A DNA stretch of 64,000 nt from Spirochaetaceae bacterium (GCA_028821475.1 JAPPGB010000032.1:62001-126000); one strand, 5' to 3'. Counted from the stretch's first letter, positions 54,274 to 64,000 are shown. Made by a program: numbers and translations. Notes: generated by a model not told the origin, from the sequence alone.

Positions 54274-55336
54274 CGCGAATCTGGCCGCGGCGCTGGCACG
54301 CATCGGGCCCCTGGACGCGGGCGCGATGCGGCGCGCCGAGGCGCGGCAGCGGGCGCTCACCAAGCCGCCCGGCAGCCTGGGGCGGCTGGAGGAGTTGGCG
54401 GTGCGGCTGGCCGGCATGTTCGGCGACGCGCGCCCGCGGATCGGCGGCACGGCAGTGATCGTGGCGGCCGGCGATCACGGCGTGGTGGCGCAGGGGGTGA
54501 CCGGCTATCCGCAGGCGGTTACCGCGCAGATGGTTGCCAACTTCCTCACCGGCGGTGCCGCGGTGAGCGTGATGTGCGGCCGGTTGGGAGTGCGGCAAGT
54601 GGTGGTGGATGCGGGTATCGCGGCTCCGGAGCCGGCGCCCGATCCGGCTCTGCGGGTAGTGCGCGCCGGGTCCGGCACCGGCGACATCAGCCAAGGCCCG
54701 GCGATGAGCCGGGAGCAGGCCGTGCGGTGTCTCGAAGCCGGCATCGAGATCGCCGGCGAGGTGGTGACCGCCGGGGCCGACCTGATTGCCACCGGCGACA
54801 TGGGAATCGGCAACACCACCGCCGCGAGCGCAATCACCGCCGCGGTGACCGGCCGTCCTCCGGAAGTGACGACGGGGCGCGGGACGGGGCGCAGCGATGA
54901 CCAGTTGCGCAACAAGATCGCCGTGGTGGAACGCGCGCTCGCGTGCAACATGCCCGATGGCGGCGACGCGCTCGACGTTCTGGCCAAGGTGGGCGGCTTC
55001 GAGATCGGTGTGCTGGCCGGCGTGATTCTGGGCGTAGCGAGCCGGCGCCGCGCCGTGGTGCTGGACGGCTTCATTTCAGGCGCGGCGGCGCTCGGAGCGG
55101 TCCTCCTCAGTCCGCATGCCCGCGGGTACCTGATCGCCGCGCACCGCTCGCCCGAACCGGGGCACCGCGCGGTGCTGGCGCACCTCGGCCTGAGGCCGCT
55201 GCTGGACCTGGAACTGCGCCTGGGCGAGGGCAGCGGCGCGGTGCTGGCGATGCCGATCATCGAGGCGGCCGCGGCCTGCCTGGCCGAGATGGCGACGTTC
55301 GCCGAGGCGGGCGTATCCGACCGCGACGGGTCATGA
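54260..55336 (+). CDS. cobT: Nicotinate-nucleotide--dimethylbenzimidazole phosphoribosyltransferase
   Basis: This 358-residue enzyme activates the lower-ligand base for cobalamin. Signature segments are LTKPPGSLGRLEELAVRLAGM, VIVAAGDHGVVAQGVTGYPQAVTAQMVANFL (with the active-site region), GDMGIGNTTAASAITAAVTG, and LDGFISGAAAL. The catalytic Glu lies in the usual C-terminal area (LRLGEGSGAVLAMPIIEAAAA). GTG 54260 gives the expected N-terminus and overlaps btuD. It overlaps cobS by 4 bases. Confidence 0.95.
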   Translation: MASTDANLAAALARIGPLDAGAMRRAEARQRALTKPPGSLGRLEELAVRLAGMFGDARPRIGGTAVIVAAGDHGVVAQGVTGYPQAVTAQMVANFLTGGAAVSVMCGRLGVRQVVVDAGIAAPEPAPDPALRVVRAGSGTGDISQGPAMSREQAVRCLEAGIEIAGEVVTAGADLIATGDMGIGNTTAASAITAAVTGRPPEVTTGRGTGRSDDQLRNKIAVVERALACNMPDGGDALDVLAKVGGFEIGVLAGVILGVASRRRAVVLDGFISGAAALGAVLLSPHARGYLIAAHRSPEPGHRAVLAHLGLRPLLDLELRLGEGSGAVLAMPIIEAAAACLAEMATFAEAGVSDRDGS

Positions 55337-56181
55337 ACGGCCTGCGCGCGGCGCTGACCTTCCTCACCATCCTGCCCGCCGGCGCCGGCAACGGCGCCGG
55401 CAGCGCGCGCTCGCTGGCGGCCGCACCCGCCTGGTTCCCGGCCGTCGGGCTGCTGCTCGGCGCCATTATCGCCGCACTCGACCTGCTGTTCGGCGTGGCC
55501 GGCCTGCGGCCCGCCTCCGATGCCTGCGACGCGGCGCGTGCCGGGGCGTGCGGTGTTCTCTCCCTGCTGGCCGCCGCGCTGCTGGTCACCGCGCTGGCGG
55601 TGCTGACTCGCGCGCTGCACCTGGACGGCTTCATGGACACCTGTGACGCGCTGCCGGGCGGACTCAGCCGCGCCCGCCGCCTGCAGATCCTGCGCGACTC
55701 TCACGTCGGCGCGTTCGCCGTAGTGGGTGTGGCGTGCCTGCTGCTGATCAAGGTCAGCGCGGTCGCCGCGCTGCCGGCCGCGAGCCGGCCCGCGGTCCTG
55801 CTGCTGTTCCCGTGCCTGTCGCGCTGGGCGATGCTGCTCGCGATGGAGATATTCCCGTACGTGCGCGAGCGCGGCGCGGGCACGCCGTTCGCCGGCGGAC
55901 GCGGCCGGTGGGCGCTGATCGCCGGCAGCGGCACCGCCGCGGCCGCCGGGCTGGCATTGGCCGGCTGGTGGTCACTGGCGCTGCTGGCGCTGGCCGGGGC
56001 GGCCGCCTGGGCGGTAGCGACGGTCGCACGCCGCCTGATCGGTGGCATGACCGGCGACATCTACGGCGCGGTGAACGAGATCGCGGAGGTTGCGGTGCTC
56101 GTGGCAGCGGCGGTGATCGCGGCCGGGAGGTCCGACGCCATGCGCTCGCCGGTCGCCGGCTGGTTGGACGGAGCGGGATGA
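55333..56181 (+). CDS. cobS: Adenosylcobinamide-GDP ribazoletransferase (cobalamin synthase)
   Basis: This 282-residue membrane enzyme joins adenosylcobinamide-GDP to alpha-ribazole or its phosphate. Diagnostic blocks are LTFLTILPAG, the motif LHLDGFMDTCDAL, ARRLQILRDSHVGAFAVVGV and CLSRWAMLLAM with MTGDIYGAVNEI near the end. Several hydrophobic helices are present. The ATGA overlap with cobT fixes the start. Its stop overlaps the cobC start. Confidence 0.95.
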   Translation: MNGLRAALTFLTILPAGAGNGAGSARSLAAAPAWFPAVGLLLGAIIAALDLLFGVAGLRPASDACDAARAGACGVLSLLAAALLVTALAVLTRALHLDGFMDTCDALPGGLSRARRLQILRDSHVGAFAVVGVACLLLIKVSAVAALPAASRPAVLLLFPCLSRWAMLLAMEIFPYVRERGAGTPFAGGRGRWALIAGSGTAAAAGLALAGWWSLALLALAGAAAWAVATVARRLIGGMTGDIYGAVNEIAEVAVLVAAAVIAAGRSDAMRSPVAGWLDGAG

Positions 56182-56825
56182 TGGAAGCAAGCAGGTGGTA
56201 CCTGGTTCGGCACGGCGAGACCGCCTGGAACCGGGAGTCGCGGTTCCAGGGGCAGGCGGATCCGCCGCTGAACGACGCCGGACGGACGCAGGCGCGGGCG
56301 GTCGCGAAGCGCCTGGCGGGGGTTTCGTTTGCCGCGGCGTACGCGAGCGACTTGGGCCGGGTCACGCAGACGGCGGCGGCCGTCGCGCGCGGCCGCGAGT
56401 TGCGGGTAACCGAGTTGGCCGAGTTGCGCGAGAAGGGCTTCGGCGAGTGGGAGGGCCTGACCTACCGGGAAGCGGAGGCGCGGGATCCGGAGCACTACCG
56501 CCGCATCTTTCGCGCGCCCACCTACGACGAGGATACCGCGCCTCCGGGCGGGGAGAGCGACCTGCAGATGTTGGGGCGGGTGTCGGGAGTCGCGCGCCGG
56601 CTGCGCGACGAGCACGGCGGGCGCGATGAGAACGTCCTCATAGTGGGACACGGCGGCTCGCTGTGTGCGCTGATCGTGTCGCTGTTGGGGTTGCCGTCGC
56701 GGGCGATCTGGCGGTTCAGAATTGCCAATTGCGGCCTGGCGCAGGTCACGGTGTTCGACGACGGCGCCGCGACGCTGGACCTGTTCAACGACACCGGCCA
56801 CCTGCGGTCATGCGCGGCGCACTGA
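56178..56825 (+). CDS. cobC: Histidine phosphatase family protein, probable alpha-ribazole phosphatase
   Basis: This 215-residue phosphoglycerate-mutase-like phosphatase has the catalytic RHGET motif (LVRHGETAWN), then RFQGQADPPLN, ASDLGRVTQTA, LREKGFGEWEG and VGHGGSL with the second His. Family members are diverse; its place inside the cob operon makes alpha-ribazole-5'-phosphate dephosphorylation the likely role. Two ATG codons in tandem (56178, 56181) start it, and it overlaps cobU by 16 bases. Confidence 0.88.
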   Translation: MMEASRWYLVRHGETAWNRESRFQGQADPPLNDAGRTQARAVAKRLAGVSFAAAYASDLGRVTQTAAAVARGRELRVTELAELREKGFGEWEGLTYREAEARDPEHYRRIFRAPTYDEDTAPPGGESDLQMLGRVSGVARRLRDEHGGRDENVLIVGHGGSLCALIVSLLGLPSRAIWRFRIANCGLAQVTVFDDGAATLDLFNDTGHLRSCAAH

Positions 56826-57376
56826 CCTTCATCGTCGGCGGCGCCCGCTCCGGCAAGAGCACGCACGCCGAACAGCTCGCGGCGCGCGGCGAGCGGGTGC
56901 TGTACGTCGCCACCGCCGAGGGGCGCGACGCGGAGATGCGGAGCCGCATTGCCGCTCACCGGGCCGCCCGGCCGGAGCACTGGGACACCCTGGAGGAACC
57001 GCTCGACCCGGCCGGCGCGTTGCGGTCCGTTCACCACCGCTACGACACCGTGTTGATCGACTGCCTCACCCTGTGGGTCAGCAACCTGCTGCTCGATCGC
57101 CAGCCGGGCACCGCTTCGGAGCGCGATCTGGAGGAGCGTATCTTGATCTCTACAAGAGAGTTGCTGGACGTCTGCGCGGGTTCGCGCGCGCACTGGATCG
57201 TGGTCAGCAACGAGGTCGGGCTGGGCGTGGTGCCGCCATCGCCGCTGGGTCGCGCCTACCGCGATGCGCTCGGCCGGGTGAACCAGGCGGTCGCCGCGCG
57301 GGCCGGCGAGGTGTGCCTGATGGTGGCGGGCTTGCCGCTGCAGATCAAACCGCCCGCGAAAGGAGATTTGGAGTGA
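56810..57376 (+). CDS. cobU: Adenosylcobinamide kinase / guanylyltransferase
   Basis: This 188-residue bifunctional enzyme phosphorylates adenosylcobinamide and transfers GMP to it. The P-loop is GGARSGKSTHAE near the N-terminus. Other blocks are VLYVATAE, RIAAHRAARPEHWDTLEEP with the His that accepts GMP, VLIDCLTLWVSNLLL and WIVVSNEVGLGVVPPSPLGRAYRDALGRVNQ. ATG 56810 matches the family start. The stop TGA shares its last A with the ATG of cobO. Confidence 0.95.
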   Translation: MRGALTFIVGGARSGKSTHAEQLAARGERVLYVATAEGRDAEMRSRIAAHRAARPEHWDTLEEPLDPAGALRSVHHRYDTVLIDCLTLWVSNLLLDRQPGTASERDLEERILISTRELLDVCAGSRAHWIVVSNEVGLGVVPPSPLGRAYRDALGRVNQAVAARAGEVCLMVAGLPLQIKPPAKGDLE

Positions 57377-58026
57377 TGACCGACCGCAATGACAGCGCAG
57401 AGGCGCGCGAGTCGCCGGGCGCCGGCGCCGCCGACCGCGAGCACGCCGAGCGCATGCGCCGGCTGCAGGCCGAGCAGCGCGCCAAGGTGGCGCGTGCCGT
57501 GAATCCGGAGCGCGGGCTGGTGCTGGTGCACACCGGCAATGGCAAGGGCAAGTCGAGCGCCGCCTTCGGCGTGGCCGCGCGCGCCCTCGGCTGGGGACAG
57601 CGCGTCGCAATCGTGCAGTTCATCAAGGGCAAGTGGCAGACCGGCGAACGGCGTTTCTTCAGCCGCTTCCCGGAGCAGGTGGAGTGGCGCACCACCGGCC
57701 AGGGCTTCACCTGGGACACCCAGAACCGAGCACTGGACATCGCCACCGCCCGGGCCGGACTCGACATCGCGCGCGAGTCGATCGCCGGCGGGCAATTCGA
57801 CCTGGTGGTGCTGGACGAGATCAACGTGGTGTCGAGCTACAACTACCTGCCGGCCGCCGAAATAATCGACTGCCTGGAGGCGCGCGCCGCCCGCACCCAC
57901 GTCGTGCTGACCGGCCGCGGCGCCGCCCGCGAACTGATCGAGTACGCCGACCTGGTCAGCGAGATGGTAGAGATCAAGCACCCTTTCCAATCCGGAATCA
58001 AGGCTCAACGCGGCATCGACTTCTGA
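57376..58026 (+). CDS. cobO: Cob(I)yrinic acid a,c-diamide adenosyltransferase (CobO/CobA/BtuR)
   Basis: This 216-residue enzyme adenosylates corrinoids. The P-loop is VHTGNGKGKSSAAFG, followed by VAIVQFIKGKW, the WRTTGQGFTWDTQN substrate segment and the LVVLDEINVVSSYNYL Walker B-like motif. The C-terminal VSEMVEIKHPFQSGIKAQRGIDF is typical. AAGGAG sits about 11 bases upstream within cobU. It closes the operon, giving a salvage route from imported corrinoids to adenosylcobalamin. The corrin ring-synthesis genes are absent from the window. Confidence 0.95.
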   Translation: MTDRNDSAEARESPGAGAADREHAERMRRLQAEQRAKVARAVNPERGLVLVHTGNGKGKSSAAFGVAARALGWGQRVAIVQFIKGKWQTGERRFFSRFPEQVEWRTTGQGFTWDTQNRALDIATARAGLDIARESIAGGQFDLVVLDEINVVSSYNYLPAAEIIDCLEARAARTHVVLTGRGAARELIEYADLVSEMVEIKHPFQSGIKAQRGIDF

Positions 58027-58071
58027 CTCCGGCGGCGTTTACAGGCCAGTACGTGAGACGACCGGAGTCAG
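58023..58071 (+). terminator. Inverted repeat at the end of the cobalamin operon
   Basis: The 10-bp arms CTGACTCCGG (58023-58032) and CCGGAGTCAG (58062-58071) overlap the cobO stop codon. The loop is 29 bases and no T-tract follows, so it may protect the transcript end rather than terminate it. Confidence 0.4.
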
Positions 58072-58852
58072 TAGACGAGGCCGCTCAGGGTAGATGAGCC
58101 GGCGTTCGCATCGCGGAACAACGACGCTGGGCGCCGGACAGCCACTCGTCGCGGCTGCCGGAGACGTGCGGGTCACTGCGGCCACGTTGGGCACCTGCTC
58201 GGCCACAGCTTGCACGTGCGAGGTCAGCAAGCTCGTCGAGTACGGCGCGTATTGTCGGGTGCTGATCGGGCAACTGGTCGTGCCGCCCGAGGCGCGCTCC
58301 CAGGTGCCAGTCCGCAGTGTGCAGGTTCTCGCACGCCGAGGCAAGGCCCAGCGAGGGCAGCAAGATCGCGTCCCACCGCCTGCACTTGTTCCTGCTGCAC
58401 GGCGGTGTCCGGTGCCTTCCATGTGCCCCACATCGCCATAGAACCCTGGTTCACCACCTGCCTGCCAGCATAGAGATTTCTCCAGTGGGCCAGTCCGCGA
58501 TGGCGAGGCTCCCAACCAGATGACTCAACCGACGGCGAGACACGGGTAAGGCACGATCCACCAACAATCTCGCTCATGGACCCAGCCGTTCGGAACTAAG
58601 TTTCGGCGGCGACTCTGCCGTTCCTTGTCTGTTGAACGCTATGTCATGATGGTCCACCTGTCAGCGTCTGAAACCCTTCGCACGGCGAGCCACCGAGATC
58701 TCACACGCTCTCGGGAGGTCCTTTGCCGAAACCGTCCCACCCCCGGTTGTCAAGCGTACCGCGAGGCAATATCCTTTGGTCACCAATTCAGGTCTGAGCG
58801 CACTGGATGTTCTACTCTCGTATCCCGCGACACCTAGGAAGTTTGTCCGCCG
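58072..58852. other. No intact gene; boundary of lower-GC island
   Basis: Apart from a short SbcD-like scrap at 58210-58327 I see no gene. Base composition falls toward the methyltransferase gene from about 58600. I could not find a ribosome-binding site or clear promoter for the methyltransferase. Confidence 0.4.
58210..58327 (-). pseudogene. Fragment resembling SbcD/Mre11 nuclease N-terminus
   Basis: The minus strand encodes LHTADWHLGARLGRHDQL followed by PDQHPTIRAVLDELADLA, very like the start of SbcD-type exonucleases (LHTSDWHLG with the first metal-binding Asp and His). The next metal motif (GDxxD) is not found in any frame, so only about 40 residues persist. Confidence 0.55.
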
Positions 58853-59932
58853 ATGGATGAGCTTCTACCCTACGTGAGGGAGCTTGAACAGCAGATACTG
58901 ACGCAACGTCTTTCGTGGACACGGTGGACGAAATGGTGCGATGTATCGCTGAACAGCGGCGCGGCGTTAGAGCTTCGACAAGCGGCCGGTTTACGAGCTC
59001 AAAAAAGACAAGGCGCATTTTTCACGGGCGCCTCTCTCGCAGAACGAGCAGTGTCTGCACTCGGAATGTCCGTGCAAGATTCCTGTCGCTATTTTGATCC
59101 GACTTGCGGCGCAGGGGATCTTCTTTTGGCTATTGCTCGAAAAATGAACATTGGTGCGACAGTGGCGGAGACCCTCTCTCAGTGGGGAAATCGACTAGTC
59201 GGATGCGATATTTCTCCTGTTTTCGTACGCGCGGCGAGAGCGCGCCTCGCCCTGCTAGCAATGCGGCGAGTTGGTTGTCGCGAGTCCCTTACGTCACGTG
59301 AATTAGCGGAAGCTTTTCCTTCGATCACGACGGCTGACATTCGTAATTGCACTGACCTCTATTCGCAATCGGATCGAATCGTGATGAACCCACCATACAC
59401 GCTAGTCAACGTTTCGGACAAGTATGTGTGGAGTACGGGACTCACCAATGCGGCTGCGTGCTTTGCAGCTGATGCAATTGTACATTGCAAAGCCGGTGCT
59501 CGGATAGTTGCGATTCTTCCAGATGTACTTCGATCTGGCACGCGATATGAGAGATGGCGGACTATGGTCGAGAAGTTTGCTTCAATTGTTGATGTCCGTG
59601 GGTTGCATCCATGGAGCACGAAGTTGCGTGTTTCGGAGACACGGCGGTTCAAAGGGCGTCTGTTTGAGCCACCGTTTGTTGCGATCCGACGGACATCGAG
59701 TCCAAGAGATGGTAGGAGGGCTGTAGCGACAACGGTGCTAGGCCAGGAAGACGTGGCGGTAGAAAATCACATTATCGTGTGCACTCCGCGCGACCGGTCA
59801 GTGGAGAGTTGCCAGAAGTTTGTCGCACGGCTCATGAGTCAAAAGACAGATGAGTGGTTAAACGAACGAATACGTTGTCGGCATCTGACGCTTGGTGCCG
59901 TTGGTAGGTTGCCATGGTGGTCGGGCGAGTGA
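58853..59932 (+). CDS. N6-adenine DNA methyltransferase
   Basis: This 359-residue gamma-type amino-methyltransferase has motif X QGAFFTG (52-59), motif I FDPTCGAGDLLLA (81-93), a motif II Asp in VGCDISP, and the catalytic motif IV NPPY (179-182). It has little target-recognition sequence after motif VIII, so it is compact for a restriction-system enzyme. A truncated BsuBI/PstI-type endonuclease gene lies 2.5 kb downstream on the other strand, and such endonucleases pair with N6-adenine methylases, so they may once have been partners. Codon use and GC are clearly lower than in the cob operon, a sign of transfer. DUF262 follows on the same strand after 152 bases. Confidence 0.88.
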   Translation: MDELLPYVRELEQQILTQRLSWTRWTKWCDVSLNSGAALELRQAAGLRAQKRQGAFFTGASLAERAVSALGMSVQDSCRYFDPTCGAGDLLLAIARKMNIGATVAETLSQWGNRLVGCDISPVFVRAARARLALLAMRRVGCRESLTSRELAEAFPSITTADIRNCTDLYSQSDRIVMNPPYTLVNVSDKYVWSTGLTNAAACFAADAIVHCKAGARIVAILPDVLRSGTRYERWRTMVEKFASIVDVRGLHPWSTKLRVSETRRFKGRLFEPPFVAIRRTSSPRDGRRAVATTVLGQEDVAVENHIIVCTPRDRSVESCQKFVARLMSQKTDEWLNERIRCRHLTLGAVGRLPWWSGE

Positions 59933-59957
59933 GTCAGAACCGGTCAACACGATGGCG

Positions 59958-59976
59958 CGTTCGTGTGTCGCGAACG
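59958..59976 (+). promoter_or_regulatory. Small inverted repeat before DUF262 gene
   Basis: CGTTCG and CGAACG (59958-59963, 59971-59976) with a 7-base loop lie between the methyltransferase stop and the DUF262 start. This could be an operator or a weak hairpin. Confidence 0.3.
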
Positions 59977-60084
59977 GCTGAGCGAGCCGAGCGAATGCGT
60001 GTAGCTTGGGTGTTGCAAGAATGTGGCTGGAGGGGTTAGAGTTCGTAGAGGCATGCGTGGGAGCGGAGCACGGGAGGTGTTTAC

Positions 60085-61152
60085 ATGAACCGCAGTTTGA
60101 CTACCCAAGATATTAGCTGGTTCCTGGATCAGTACGAGAGGAATCAGCTTGACCTAGAGCCGGCCTATCAACGTCGTAGTGTTTGGTCACCGCGCGACAA
60201 GAAGTTTTTCGTTGATACAATCTTGAACAACTACCCAGCGCCGCCGGTGTTTTTGCACAAGACGATGGACGAAAACGGACGTGCGACTTACCATGTAGTC
60301 GATGGAAAGCAGCGGCTGCAGACGATTATCGAGTTTACACAGGACCGGGTAAGAGTACCCGACTACTTTGGTGATCGCAATCTACAGAAGAAGCGATGGA
60401 AGGATCTCGCACGAGAGACCCGCGAGAGATTCTGGAACTACGAGTTAATTGTGGAGATGATGCCGAATGTCGAGGAGGCGCAGATCCGAAGCACGTTCGA
60501 CCGCATAAACCGCAATTCACGTCGATTGACTCCCCAGGAGTTGAGGCATGCGAAGTACGAAGGCTGGTTCATCAGATTTGTCGAGCGCGAGGCCGAGAAG
60601 ATTGAGTGGAAGAATACAGGAGTAGTCACGACAGCGCGAATCAAGCGTATGCTTGACGTTCAGTTCATCTCGGAGTTGTGTGCTGTGATAATAAAGGGCC
60701 GTATTATAGGGTTCGATCAAGACGGGCTTGACGATCTGTATGCGGAGTATGAAGACGTCTCGGAGCTGTATGGATTCATTGAGGATGACTTCGTCACACA
60801 GCTGGAGGTCCTCAAGAAGAGTGTTGCAGAGATGATTGATTTGCGACCTAGTATAGCGGACTACATTAGACCTCAAGGTAACTTCTATTCATTGTGGAGC
60901 TATCTCTTCCTGGAGCGTCCGATCTCCTCTCCAAAAAGGGAATTGGTTGATCGATATGACAAGTTCATGAGAGCCGTGCAGAGGGCTAAAGATGCACAGG
61001 ATGCTAAGGAGGATCCGAACGCCGTTCTTTCTGGAGATCGCGCCTTTCGGGCTGCCGCAATCGACTATGCGAACAATACGCGAGGGGCCAGTACGGATCT
61101 GACACCGCGAACAAAGCGTCACGACGCTTTGGTAGCCGCAATGCAACAATAG
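60085..61152 (+). CDS. DUF262 (GmrSD N-terminal-like) protein
   Basis: This 355-residue DUF262 protein has the hallmark DGKQRLQTI (73-81), matching the DGQQR motif of the ParB-like NTPase/nuclease fold. The family segments LEPAYQRRSVWSPRDKKFFVDTIL near the N-terminus and FDRINRNSRRLTPQELRHAKYEGWF further on are also present. Proteins with this domain include GmrS, BrxU and SspE-like restriction factors that sense or cut modified DNA. Here there is no C-terminal DUF1524 (HNH) domain, so any cutting partner must be separate. GGAGGTG lies 5-6 bases before the ATG. The RelA/SpoT-like gene starts 11 bases after the stop, so the two are co-expressed. Confidence 0.9.
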   Translation: MNRSLTTQDISWFLDQYERNQLDLEPAYQRRSVWSPRDKKFFVDTILNNYPAPPVFLHKTMDENGRATYHVVDGKQRLQTIIEFTQDRVRVPDYFGDRNLQKKRWKDLARETRERFWNYELIVEMMPNVEEAQIRSTFDRINRNSRRLTPQELRHAKYEGWFIRFVEREAEKIEWKNTGVVTTARIKRMLDVQFISELCAVIIKGRIIGFDQDGLDDLYAEYEDVSELYGFIEDDFVTQLEVLKKSVAEMIDLRPSIADYIRPQGNFYSLWSYLFLERPISSPKRELVDRYDKFMRAVQRAKDAQDAKEDPNAVLSGDRAFRAAAIDYANNTRGASTDLTPRTKRHDALVAAMQQ

Positions 61153-61163
61153 CGCACCTCTCT

Positions 61164-62153
61164 GTGAAGATTGTCAAGTCAATTCGTGACATCCACCGAA
61201 GCTGCCAGCCTAAGTACAAGATGCTCAAATTGGATGTAGAAGAAGTATTGAAGAGCATGGTTGAAGACTCCGGATGGCTCTACTCTTCCCGTATTAAGAC
61301 ACTCGAGAGTTTCGCTCAAAAGGTCGAGACGGGGAGCGTGGTAGATCCAATGTGTCTGGAGGACTTCTTCGCATGTACAATCGTAGTTCCAACAATTGCT
61401 GAAATCGGCAGTGCGGAGGAGATGGTCTATCAGCTGTATGATCGTAGGGAACGTCGACCAATCGACGACAACTTCACAAGGAAGAGCTCTTCAGAATTTG
61501 TTTTTGACGATTTGAGACTATACGTAGCGCGGCGCCCACGAATAAGCGGGAAGGATCCGAACCTCAATGGAGTATTATTTGAGGTACAGATAAAGACGAT
61601 CCTGCAACACGCTTGGAGCGTTGCCACTCATGATCTGATTTACAAGACGGATACCGTCAGTTGGCCGCTCGAGCGCGTCGCTTTTCAGGTGAAAGCAATG
61701 CTTGAACACGCTGAGGTATCCGTGTCTGAGGCGGTGACATTAGCGCGGGCTCCGGGCATAGCGAAAGAAGATCAACAGACAAGGGAAGTACTTGAGATTA
61801 TCGATCATGCCCGGCAGTTGTGGGCGGCGGAACAACTGCCGAGGGACGTCAGGAGGTTGGCAGTGAGCGTTTTGGCGCTATTGCGCCTGTGCGGAGTCAG
61901 TGTTGGAGAGTTTCGTTCTGTAGTAGATGCTGAGAGAGGTAGGGTTGGAGGCGTGCCAAGAGAGCTGTCTCCGTATGCGTTTACGGTACAAGCATTAGCG
62001 CGGTCGAGTTTGGTGGACTTCCGGGGCGCACTGGAAGGCGAGACCGCGCATCCGCGAGTGGTGGTGATTCATAGTGGGATGGACGTTCCGGAGTGGATGC
62101 GGGGAGGGCATTCAAGGATTCTGGACCTGAACGAAACCGTGGTACCTGCATGA
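61164..62153 (+). CDS. RelA/SpoT-domain protein (alarmone synthetase-like)
   Basis: This 329-residue protein has a RelA/SpoT synthetase-like domain at about 35-165. SSRIKTLESFAQKVETG gives the Arg-x-Lys pair (43, 45), LEDFFACTIVVP aligns with the usual D.AG.RI strand, and FEVQIKTILQHAWSVATHDLIYK gives the catalytic-loop Glu140 region. The G-loop segment is FVFDDLRLYVA, without the Tyr-x-Ser-x-His pattern of housekeeping enzymes. No hydrolase, TGS or ACT domain is present. The C-terminal 150 residues are helical and unknown. GTG 61164 is the first start; ATG 61221 is an alternative. Coupled to DUF262, it resembles toxic small alarmone synthetases of defence modules, but that role is inference. 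Confidence 0.82.
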   Translation: MKIVKSIRDIHRSCQPKYKMLKLDVEEVLKSMVEDSGWLYSSRIKTLESFAQKVETGSVVDPMCLEDFFACTIVVPTIAEIGSAEEMVYQLYDRRERRPIDDNFTRKSSSEFVFDDLRLYVARRPRISGKDPNLNGVLFEVQIKTILQHAWSVATHDLIYKTDTVSWPLERVAFQVKAMLEHAEVSVSEAVTLARAPGIAKEDQQTREVLEIIDHARQLWAAEQLPRDVRRLAVSVLALLRLCGVSVGEFRSVVDAERGRVGGVPRELSPYAFTVQALARSSLVDFRGALEGETAHPRVVVIHSGMDVPEWMRGGHSRILDLNETVVPA

Positions 62154-62305
62154 ACGGTCGGACGTCGTACGGGGAAAAAGGGGGACGGTAGATCCGGATT
62201 CGATGTGGTTGGGTTGTTTCGTGGGTCACAAACGACTTGTAGAAAGTTGAAGAGACAGGGAAGGCGGGGTAGCACGTATTGAATGTTTGTGCGTCACATC
62301 GTCAG

Positions 62306-62337
62306 GCTAGTCGCAGTCGACTAGCGCTGGCGCCAGC
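62306..62337. terminator. Double hairpin between convergent genes
   Basis: Arms GCTAGTCG/CGACTAGC (62306-62313, 62318-62325) with loop CAGT are followed directly by the palindrome GCTGGCGCCAGC (62326-62337). They lie between the RelA/SpoT-like gene and the endonuclease remnant. There is no T-tract on either strand. Confidence 0.45.
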
Positions 62338-62398
62338 ATCCCAGCTACTGGCAAGGCCGGTGCGTCCTTCCGTCGACGGACGCCAGCCGGCGCATGCA

Positions 62399-62416
62399 CA
62401 GCGGCTGACGCCGCTG
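62399..62416 (-). terminator. Hairpin after endonuclease remnant
   Basis: CAGCGGC-TGAC-GCCGCTG forms a 7-bp stem just beyond the endonuclease stop codon (62428-62426) on its strand. Confidence 0.4.
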
Positions 62417-62425
62417 CGCCTTGGA

Positions 62426-62883
62426 CTACTTGGTCCCATAAGGAGTAAGTAGTCGGCCGCCATTGAAGTGGATCAGATGTGACGGTTCGTCCGCTACCCA
62501 CACCGTGGTGTGCCATGCGATGTCTGCGAGATACCGGGCGATCGCGGCGCGGGTGGGGAACGCTGTCACGTAGACGATGCCGGCCTGGGCTTCGGCGAAG
62601 AGCTCGGTCAACTCGGCATGGCGCTGGTGGTCGATGGGGCCGTGGCTGGTTACCGCGTCGACCAGTATCAGCCATCCTCGCTCCGCATTGTGGAGCACGA
62701 CATCCGGCATCTTTCCTTGAGAGTCGACCGGCACATCCAATGCGGCGAGCCGGTCGCTGTCGAAGTGTGTCCCCTTGTCGGCGGTGTCTCCGACGAAGAC
62801 AAGCGTGCTGCGCGGGACGAATCGAGATGCGAAGTCTTCGGTAATGGCGCGGATCAGGTCGTTGGATTCTCCGGGACCTGTCA
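62426..62883 (-). pseudogene. BsuBI/PstI-type restriction endonuclease, C-terminal domain only
   Basis: The visible 150 codons are the catalytic C-terminal domain of BsuBI/PstI endonucleases: ITEDFASRFVPRSTLVFVGDTADKGTHFD, GKMPDVVLH with the active-site Asp, WLILVDAVTSHGPIDHQRHAEL, VYVTAFPTRAAIARYLADIAWHTTVWVADEPSHLIHFNG. The N-terminal helical domain is missing. Similarity begins at GPGESND, exactly where the sulfatase stop codon lies, so an illegitimate junction replaced the 5' part. The frame is open upstream only as antisense-like sequence through the sulfatase. Without promoter and N-terminus it is presumably dead. Confidence 0.85.
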
Positions 62884-64000
62884 CTTGTTGCGCCACCAGG
62901 GGCTTGGGGGGGCGTGGTTGGACTCGAAGGCGGGGGAGCCGTCGTTCCAGGAGCGGCCGACGGGGCGCAACTGGCCGCCGCCGCTGACCGGCAGAGAACG
63001 GCCGTTCTTGTCCGCGGATACCTGCTTGATGAACCAGTCTTCGAGCAGGCCGCGCAGTTCTTCGATGCGCGGCTGCTGGCCGGTGTCGTCGATGCGGTTG
63101 GTGCGCTCGCCGGGATCGTTTACCAGGTCGTACAACTCGTTGGGGGCGGCCGGGAGCGTTGCGACGGGGTAGCGGTGCACGTACTTCCACTCGGCGGTGC
63201 GGATCATCCGGGTAGCGCCGTACTCGTCGTAGATCACGACGTGGTCGTGCGCCGGTGCGTCACCGCCTTGCAGGAGGCCGGCGAAGGAGCGCCCGGGGCG
63301 ACCGCGGTGCAGGACCTTGGGGAAGTCGACGCCGGCATAGTCCAGCAGGGTGGGCATGAAGTCGACTGCGCTGCACATCCGGCCGGTGGCGCGCCCCTGG
63401 GGGATGCGGCCCGGCTGGCTGGCCAGGAACGGTACCTTGATCGAGTTTTCGTACATGTTGAGCGGCAAGGTGCCGTTGCCCTTGCCCCAGAAGCCGTGGT
63501 GGCCGCAACTGAAGCCGTTGTCGCTGGTGAACACCACCAGCGTGTCGTCGCGGATGCCATGGTGTTCCAGCCGGTCGAGGATGCGACCCACGTCCAGGTC
63601 CATGGCGGTGACGGCGGCGAAGTAGCCCTTGAGCATTTCGCGGTTGCCGAGGCACTTCCGGGACAGCCAGTGGGCCCACGGATGCAGCTTTTCCTGCGGG
63701 CAAGAATCGAACGGGCAGTCGTCGTAGCTGTCGACGATGTCCTGCGGATGGCCGGTCCACGGGCTGTGCGGGGCGGTGTAGTGCACGCTCAGGTAGAACG
63801 GCGCTGCGTCGCCGGCGCGGCGGTCGATGAACTCCAGGGCGTCGTCGGTGATCACGTTGGTAACGTAGCCGGGGGCGTTGAACAGCTCGCCGTCGCGGAT
63901 CATCGGTGCGTCTTTGTACTCGCCGCCGCCCTTCTCGTGCACGAACCAGTGGCTGAAGCCGTGCTGCGGCAGGGCGCTGTTGCCGAGGTGCCACTTGCCG
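62881..64000 (-). CDS. Sulfatase family hydrolase (5' part beyond window)
   Basis: The 373 visible codons begin GKWHLGNSALPQHGF, the second sulfatase signature, and continue with SVHYTAPHSPWTGHPQDI, LDRLEHHGIRDDTLVVFTSDNGFSCGHHGFWGKGNGTLPLNMYENSIKVPFL (the metal-binding Asp-Asn), and ELYDLVNDPGERTN. The N-terminus with the formylglycine Cys/Ser motif is outside the window, so activity class cannot be checked. Such enzymes remove sulfate from polysaccharides or lipids. The last 12 residues (APPSPWWRNK) run into the junction with the endonuclease remnant, so the native C-terminus may be altered. Confidence 0.93.
   Translation of the reverse strand, partial: GKWHLGNSALPQHGFSHWFVHEKGGGEYKDAPMIRDGELFNAPGYVTNVITDDALEFIDRRAGDAAPFYLSVHYTAPHSPWTGHPQDIVDSYDDCPFDSCPQEKLHPWAHWLSRKCLGNREMLKGYFAAVTAMDLDVGRILDRLEHHGIRDDTLVVFTSDNGFSCGHHGFWGKGNGTLPLNMYENSIKVPFLASQPGRIPQGRATGRMCSAVDFMPTLLDYAGVDFPKVLHRGRPGRSFAGLLQGGDAPAHDHVVIYDEYGATRMIRTAEWKYVHRYPVATLPAAPNELYDLVNDPGERTNRIDDTGQQPRIEELRGLLEDWFIKQVSADKNGRSLPVSGGGQLRPVGRSWNDGSPAFESNHAPPSPWWRNK

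Follow-up and report, generated by a model that had tools for sequence, protein, structure and literature searches.

We analysed a 64,000-nt stretch of DNA from the Spirochaetaceae bacterium assembly GCA_028821475.1 (JAPPGB010000032.1:62001-126000), which we call the window and on whose numbering all window coordinates are based. Close to its end lies a gene pair encoding a DUF262 protein and a RelA/SpoT-like protein, which resembles an as yet undescribed form of anti-phage defence that would stop growth instead of cutting DNA. A first-pass annotation of this DNA had described three same-strand genes of low guanine-plus-cytosine (GC) content at 58853-62153, the last two 11 bases apart, and open reading frames, Pfam domains and base composition (50-54% GC in the three genes against 66.6% in the whole window) agree with this description:

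58853..59932, plus strand: N6-type (NPPY) DNA methylase, 359 amino acids (aa); aligned with relatives, and with a Pfam N6_Mtase match (1.7e-4) that barely exceeds the cut-off
60085..61152, plus strand: DUF262/GmrSD_N protein, 355 aa; Pfam GmrSD_N, 5.1e-21
61164..62153, plus strand: RelA/SpoT-like protein, 329 aa; Pfam RelA_SpoT (PF04607), 6.3e-9, over the cut-off
61497..61529, plus strand: altered G-loop of the RelA-like protein, residues 112-122 (FVFDDLRLYVA), from an alignment of 53 members

The RelA-like gene is not the housekeeping stringent-response gene, because the genome carries a separate, strong RelA/SpoT (8.2e-44), and its G-loop differs as well. An AlphaFold model of the RelA-like protein (predicted local distance difference test, pLDDT, 92.9) reveals a synthetase fold followed by a helical C-terminal domain. 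The top solved-structure matches found with Foldseek are RelQ (E 3e-8, target template-modelling score up to 0.74) and CapRel (E 4.5e-8), and in these matches we noted no structural counterpart for the last ~140 residues. Arg-43, Lys-45, Ser-49, Lys-53, Asp-67, Glu-140, Gln-142, Lys-144, Tyr-160 and Lys-161 are invariant among the 49-53 family members aligned, such that the ATP/Mg-binding set (RxK..S...K, D, ExQ) is fully kept. The departure of the G-loop from the housekeeping pattern, already pointed out in the first-pass annotation, turned out to be conserved family-wide. Over 53 members, Phe-112, Phe-114 and Arg-118 are found in 100%, Asp-115 in 96% and Asp-116 in 92%, and the resulting x-F-D-D-x-R stands where other RelA/SpoT homologue (RSH) rows have G-Y-x-S-x-H, with Y, S and H replaced by F, D and R. 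The tyrosine that stacks on the acceptor base is a phenylalanine in 53/53 members and a tyrosine in all other RSH rows compared, a set that does not include the housekeeping row out_L001. In addition, the arginine after DxxGx is a threonine in 86% of the members. Because the donor and metal sites are kept while the acceptor loop is changed throughout the family, these features point to an active enzyme with an acceptor other than a guanine nucleotide. In CapRel, a RelA fold acts in phage defence by tRNA pyrophosphorylation, and its G-loop tyrosine is required, with Y155A abolishing defence (PMC9712102).

The DUF262 protein was likewise modelled well (pLDDT 90.2). The nearest solved fold is that of BrxU, followed by ParB-type proteins and SspE, and the C-terminal half is helical. 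The GmrSD-type D-G-(Q)-Q-R motif is present with a lysine in place of the first glutamine, and the resulting DGKQR nucleotide motif is invariant in a 49-member alignment of the subfamily. In line with the first-pass reading, Pfam scan, model and fold search revealed no nuclease domain in the protein, DUF1524/HNH included, and no partner gene supplies one. Among defence profiles, NsnA matches best (4.1e-35; we take NsnA and NsnB to be the Menshen genes), and PD-T4-2_A matches at 4.6e-17; across the subfamily, the two profiles are matched by 49/49 and 48/49 members, respectively. The subfamily is sharply delimited, at 1e-139 or better versus 5e-32 for the next DUF262 protein in the same genome, and rare, occurring in about 1 in 400 sampled genomes. 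The source genome has 14 GmrSD_N/DUF262 matches, and on contig C32 the one in the window is the only one.

We searched for the pair in other genomes. A RelA alignment used to scan 84,980 species yielded 50 strong homologues, and the counts are lower bounds since the scan was seeded by two short peptide patterns; together with plasmid and IMG/VR searches, the set comprises 56 loci (numbered L). A DUF262 gene of the one subfamily lies immediately upstream of RelA in 52 of them, the four exceptions being two pTi copies split by an insertion sequence (IS), one locus at a contig end and one that is decayed. The spacing ranges from overlap to +11 bases, with the 4-base overlap of coupled genes being frequent, and the largest overlaps stem from taking the longest reading frame. 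An N6-methylase is found within 1.5 kb in 46/56 loci; in 32 of these it shares the strand and lies upstream, and the other 14 are arranged differently. Some loci have an endonuclease of the BsuBI/PstI type, which is sometimes fused with the methylase, others one of the Eco57I type, and others none; the exact trio of methylase, DUF262 and RelA without an endonuclease occurs in eight loci (L039, L045, L048, L054, L055, L056, L061, L065). The pair is hence not a chance co-occurrence, and it recurs with adenine-type methylases, Type II restriction genes and in mobile contexts. Its members spread over 13 named phyla, two archaeal bins among them, although a bin may hold stray contigs. Plasmid searches located it in Rhizobium sp. 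007 as well as on pTi plasmids, the pTi version being ordered methylase, BsuBI/PstI endonuclease, DUF262 and RelA, with RelA interrupted by IS5; the insertion is the same in the pTi plasmids of Rhizobium tumorigenes and a relative (L005:6364-8645 and L006). IMG/VR contributed two further pairs on mobile or phage contigs. Phylum-wide matches at 23-33% identity are ordinary synthetases outside this family. A RelA/SpoT-like gene in a Vibrio filamentous phage (L008:5956-6966) lacks a DUF262 partner, has a loop of the canonical GYxSxH type, and is possibly a CapRel-like exclusion gene.

We compared distance matrices for 44 loci and found that RelA and DUF262 have diverged together (rho 0.68, Mantel p 0.0005). 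With the methylase, DUF262 correlates barely (rho 0.12, p 0.04) and RelA does not (rho 0.04, p 0.27), in a comparison made noisy by methylase classes that lie far apart. The methylase class has switched at least nine times on the RelA tree. The DUF262-RelA pair is therefore a unit, and its methylase partner is exchanged. The first-pass annotation had interpreted the three genes as a defence module in which the DUF262 protein senses the state of DNA and the methylase marks self. This reading is supported in part: the recurrent pair linked to methylases and Type II genes, its mobile context and the conserved altered G-loop bear it out, whereas DNA-state sensing, toxicity and self-marking are putative, the last particularly for this copy with its probably broken methylase. 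The weak DUF262-methylase co-divergence argues against DUF262 reading the specific site of its methylase, and we disfavor a sequence-specific partnership between the two.

Further inspection of the locus revealed features beyond the first-pass annotation, namely a minus-strand endonuclease fragment, a deletion in the methylase and the replacement of an SbcC-SbcD locus:

58417..62905, no strand: low-GC island, left edge approximate and right edge sharp; blastn against the congener locus L114
62426..62905, minus strand: BsuBI/PstI-family endonuclease C-terminal domain; PF06616, 1.8e-51, profile positions 14-153 of 154
62881..63999, minus strand: sulfatase gene, a resident flank outside the system; Pfam Sulfatase, 2.1e-27, congener copy 85% identical

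Measured against a complete BsuBI/PstI Type II system, the methylase of the window is incomplete. Alignment with 11 relatives locates, near 59590, an in-frame internal gap of ~87 conserved residues, including a VGxVVPHRDPxEG-like segment present in all 11, and the enzyme is probably inactive, or else the gap reflects an assembly collapse. The endonuclease fragment consists of the catalytic domain PF06616 only: a Pfam scan detected no PF17728, the N-terminal helix-turn-helix (HTH) domain, on it, whereas L037 and L052 contain the complete enzyme with HTH and catalytic domains. The restriction-modification (R-M) arm of this copy is thus probably dead. DUF262 and RelA both seem intact and keep every family-invariant residue.

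Homology between L114 and the window covers 55332-58229 and resumes at 62906; between them, 58236-58416 is a short, 70%-identical remnant of the SbcC-SbcD locus of L114. The congener's gene order at this site is cobO, SbcC, SbcD and sulfatase (SbcC and SbcD domains were found in L114), and a whole-genome search found no SbcC in the genome of the window. Because homology ends near 58416 and resumes at 62906 in a genome that lacks SbcC, the island has taken the place of ~7 kb that include the congener's SbcC-SbcD. Its right edge at 62905/62906 cuts off the endonuclease gene beside the sulfatase gene. We found no direct repeats of 11 bases or more at the island edges. Vertical inheritance of the module is unlikely, as a search of three further genomes from this genus and family gave no match above threshold. 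Sulfatase matches number 68 genome-wide.

The closest DUF262 genes that we located outside the subfamily, in L132 and in L095 (a Sulfurovum plasmid), adjoin SIR2_2-like genes, calls that rest on weak Pfam matches below the cut-off. Plasmid and IMG/VR searches showed that the window's methylase family also accompanies two other modules, one with a HATPase and one with a convergent DUF262 + HEPN pair. In the latter (L141, L142, L145, L150-L153, L157, L158, L160-L163), the methylase is convergent to DUF262 and a gene of ~217-289 aa, which encodes a HEPN protein (PF18735/PF18737) in 5/5 cases scanned, and DUF262 + HEPN lies beside the methylase in prophages. DUF262 and HEPN also constitute the anti-phage system PD-T4-2 (PMC10952713). 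Given that SIR2-like or HEPN genes partner the sister DUF262 genes, the RelA-like gene is, by analogy, in the effector position. The other module recurs in prophages and plasmids: in 12 loci (L134, L135, L138, L139, L140, L146-L149, L154-L156), the methylase is followed by an ATPase of ~690-780 aa (HATPase in L146), a gene of ~210-230 aa (in L134 annotated as a response regulator) and then a further gene, which is an MBL-fold hydrolase in L134 and L135.

The near-obligate pairing, the co-divergence, the methylase link, the kept catalytic residues together with a changed G-loop, and the effector swaps lead us to favor, with somewhat better than even confidence, a two-gene DUF262-RelA module for growth-arrest (abortive) defence that travels with Type II methylases or R-M systems. 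In this scheme, the DUF262 protein would be a nucleoside triphosphate (NTP)-dependent sensor and switch. Once released, the RelA-like effector would use ATP to pyrophosphorylate not GDP/GTP but another acceptor, either a different nucleotide or, as in CapRel, tRNA, and growth would be halted before phage multiply. The neighbouring methylase would mark self DNA, and an endonuclease, where present, may form the first line of defence with DUF262-RelA as the second. Toxicity, acceptor, trigger and self-marking are all properties that we infer for the module. Three points weigh against it. DUF262 and RelA are open next to a methylase that has probably lost its function in the window, and hence, unless its deletion arose in the assembly, an unmethylated chromosome alone would not be lethal. 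No methylase adjoins the pair in three loci whose flanks are usable (L062, L066 and L076, the last consisting of the pair alone), and it is therefore not strictly needed. Finally, the altered G-loop could be compatible with a weak or different enzyme, given that CapRel Y155A loses defence. In two of these loci (L062:1-2116, L066:6646-8925), an AAA_21 ATPase with an N-terminal BsuBI/PstI-endonuclease HTH domain lies directly upstream of DUF262-RelA, which we read as the endonuclease HTH being reused on an ATPase; a second small gene follows this ATPase, and that of L062 weakly matches PDC-M31B.

The alternative that survives best, though we regard it as doubtful, is restriction gated by methylation but without cutting, in which DUF262 checks incoming DNA for the mark of the methylase, and unmarked or wrongly marked DNA activates RelA in place of an endonuclease. 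The eight endonuclease-free trios, in which the methylase is solitary, fit this idea, as does the service of the same methylase family to DUF262 + HEPN and HATPase modules, and the DUF262 proteins GmrSD, BrxU and SspE do read DNA modifications (PMC10952713). A site-specific reader should however track its methylase, which the rho of only 0.12 contradicts; methylase-free pairs exist, and the window's own methylase is damaged. Alternatively, the pair could be a guard of R-M, held inactive by working R-M enzymes and released by a phage anti-restriction protein or by loss of the system. There is precedent in PrrC, which guards EcoprrI, and the attachment of the pair to PstI-type, Eco57I-type and solitary-methylase systems with swapped partners would suit a guard. 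This explanation is nonetheless unlikely, as there are trios without an endonuclease and pairs without any R-M genes, and unrelated methylase classes are not expected to share an R-M surface. We consider it just as improbable that the two genes are a plain toxin-antitoxin addiction pair, with RelA as toxin and DUF262 as antitoxin, that stabilizes mobile R-M islands without acting against phage. Such a role could be read from the coupled two-gene operon, the mobile contexts and the toxSAS toxin-antitoxins already known; yet the DUF262 protein, with its 355 residues, NTPase fold and invariant DGKQR motif, does not resemble the small antitoxins known, and sister DUF262 genes are parts of anti-phage systems. 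Least credible by far is an alarmone regulator outside defence that adjusts growth through (p)ppGpp or a similar signal and owes its R-M link to hitch-hiking with mobile elements: the RelA/SpoT domain and RelQ-like fold would allow it, but the canonical guanine-binding G-loop is absent from every member, methylases neighbour 46/56 loci in mostly unrelated genomes, and the spread is patchy, at about one genome in 400.

The growth-arrest module that we favor may, more tentatively, belong to a three-part immune class, in which self would be marked by a solitary adenine methylase, the state of DNA read by a DUF262 NTPase switch, and arrest caused by interchangeable non-nuclease toxins (RelA-like, HEPN and possibly SIR2), the RelA branch using a new acceptor chemistry set by its xF-D-D-x-R loop. 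The module would join restriction-modification, DUF262 switches and alarmone-synthetase toxins, and would allow a direct test of how self/non-self marking of DNA can be coupled to an enzyme that arrests growth rather than to a nuclease. From the replacement of the guanine-binding loop throughout a family that keeps all ATP/Mg residues, we predict that the pyrophosphotransferase uses a new acceptor. The swaps between RelA, HEPN and SIR2-like effectors may offer a route to what DUF262 proteins sense, including those of PD-T4-2, Menshen and Dazbog.

We compared the module with published systems. Our search of the open-access literature found no description of DUF262 (or GmrSD) paired with an alarmone/RelA protein, in agreement with the first-pass annotation, which knew of no named system with this exact set; subscription papers lay outside the search, and a prior mention there is possible. 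Judged by titles and counts, co-mentions of DUF262 and SpoT are apparently incidental uses of the word 'spot', and the open-access match for GmrSD with alarmone is a paper on polyvalent proteins that contains no such pair. DUF262, SpoT and alarmones are likewise absent from the DefensePredictor paper (PMC13092281). BsuBI/PstI-type methylases and endonucleases flank many members, as does a fragment in the window, but the endonuclease is missing from many others. We know of no described PstI-type system that has DUF262 and RelA as parts. CapRel and toxSAS share with the window protein the RelA/SpoT synthetase fold and the ATP- and metal-binding residues, and CapRel is anti-phage (PMC9712102); the window protein, in contrast, has no G-loop tyrosine and no detected zinc-finger-like antitoxin domain, and its partners are DUF262 and a methylase. 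GmrSD, BrxU and SspE have in common with the DUF262 protein the N-terminal fold and nucleotide motif, BrxU being the best solved match, but here DGKQR replaces DGQQR, and a partner gene stands instead of a DUF1524/HNH nuclease. The window DUF262 protein is of the NsnA type known from Menshen, and the AAA_21 ATPase of L062, which has a counterpart in L066, also matches NsnB. Unlike Menshen, the window has no NsnB ATPase gene and has RelA in the effector position, the NsnB-matching ATPase being seen only in L062. PD-T4-2 resembles our module in that a nuclease-less DUF262 gene adjoins a small effector gene, but the partner here is RelA_SpoT rather than HEPN (PF18735), almost always with a methylase alongside. 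The G-loop thus separates the module from CapRel/toxSAS, the missing nuclease from GmrSD and the missing HEPN from PD-T4-2, and we assign it to the DUF262-plus-effector kind.

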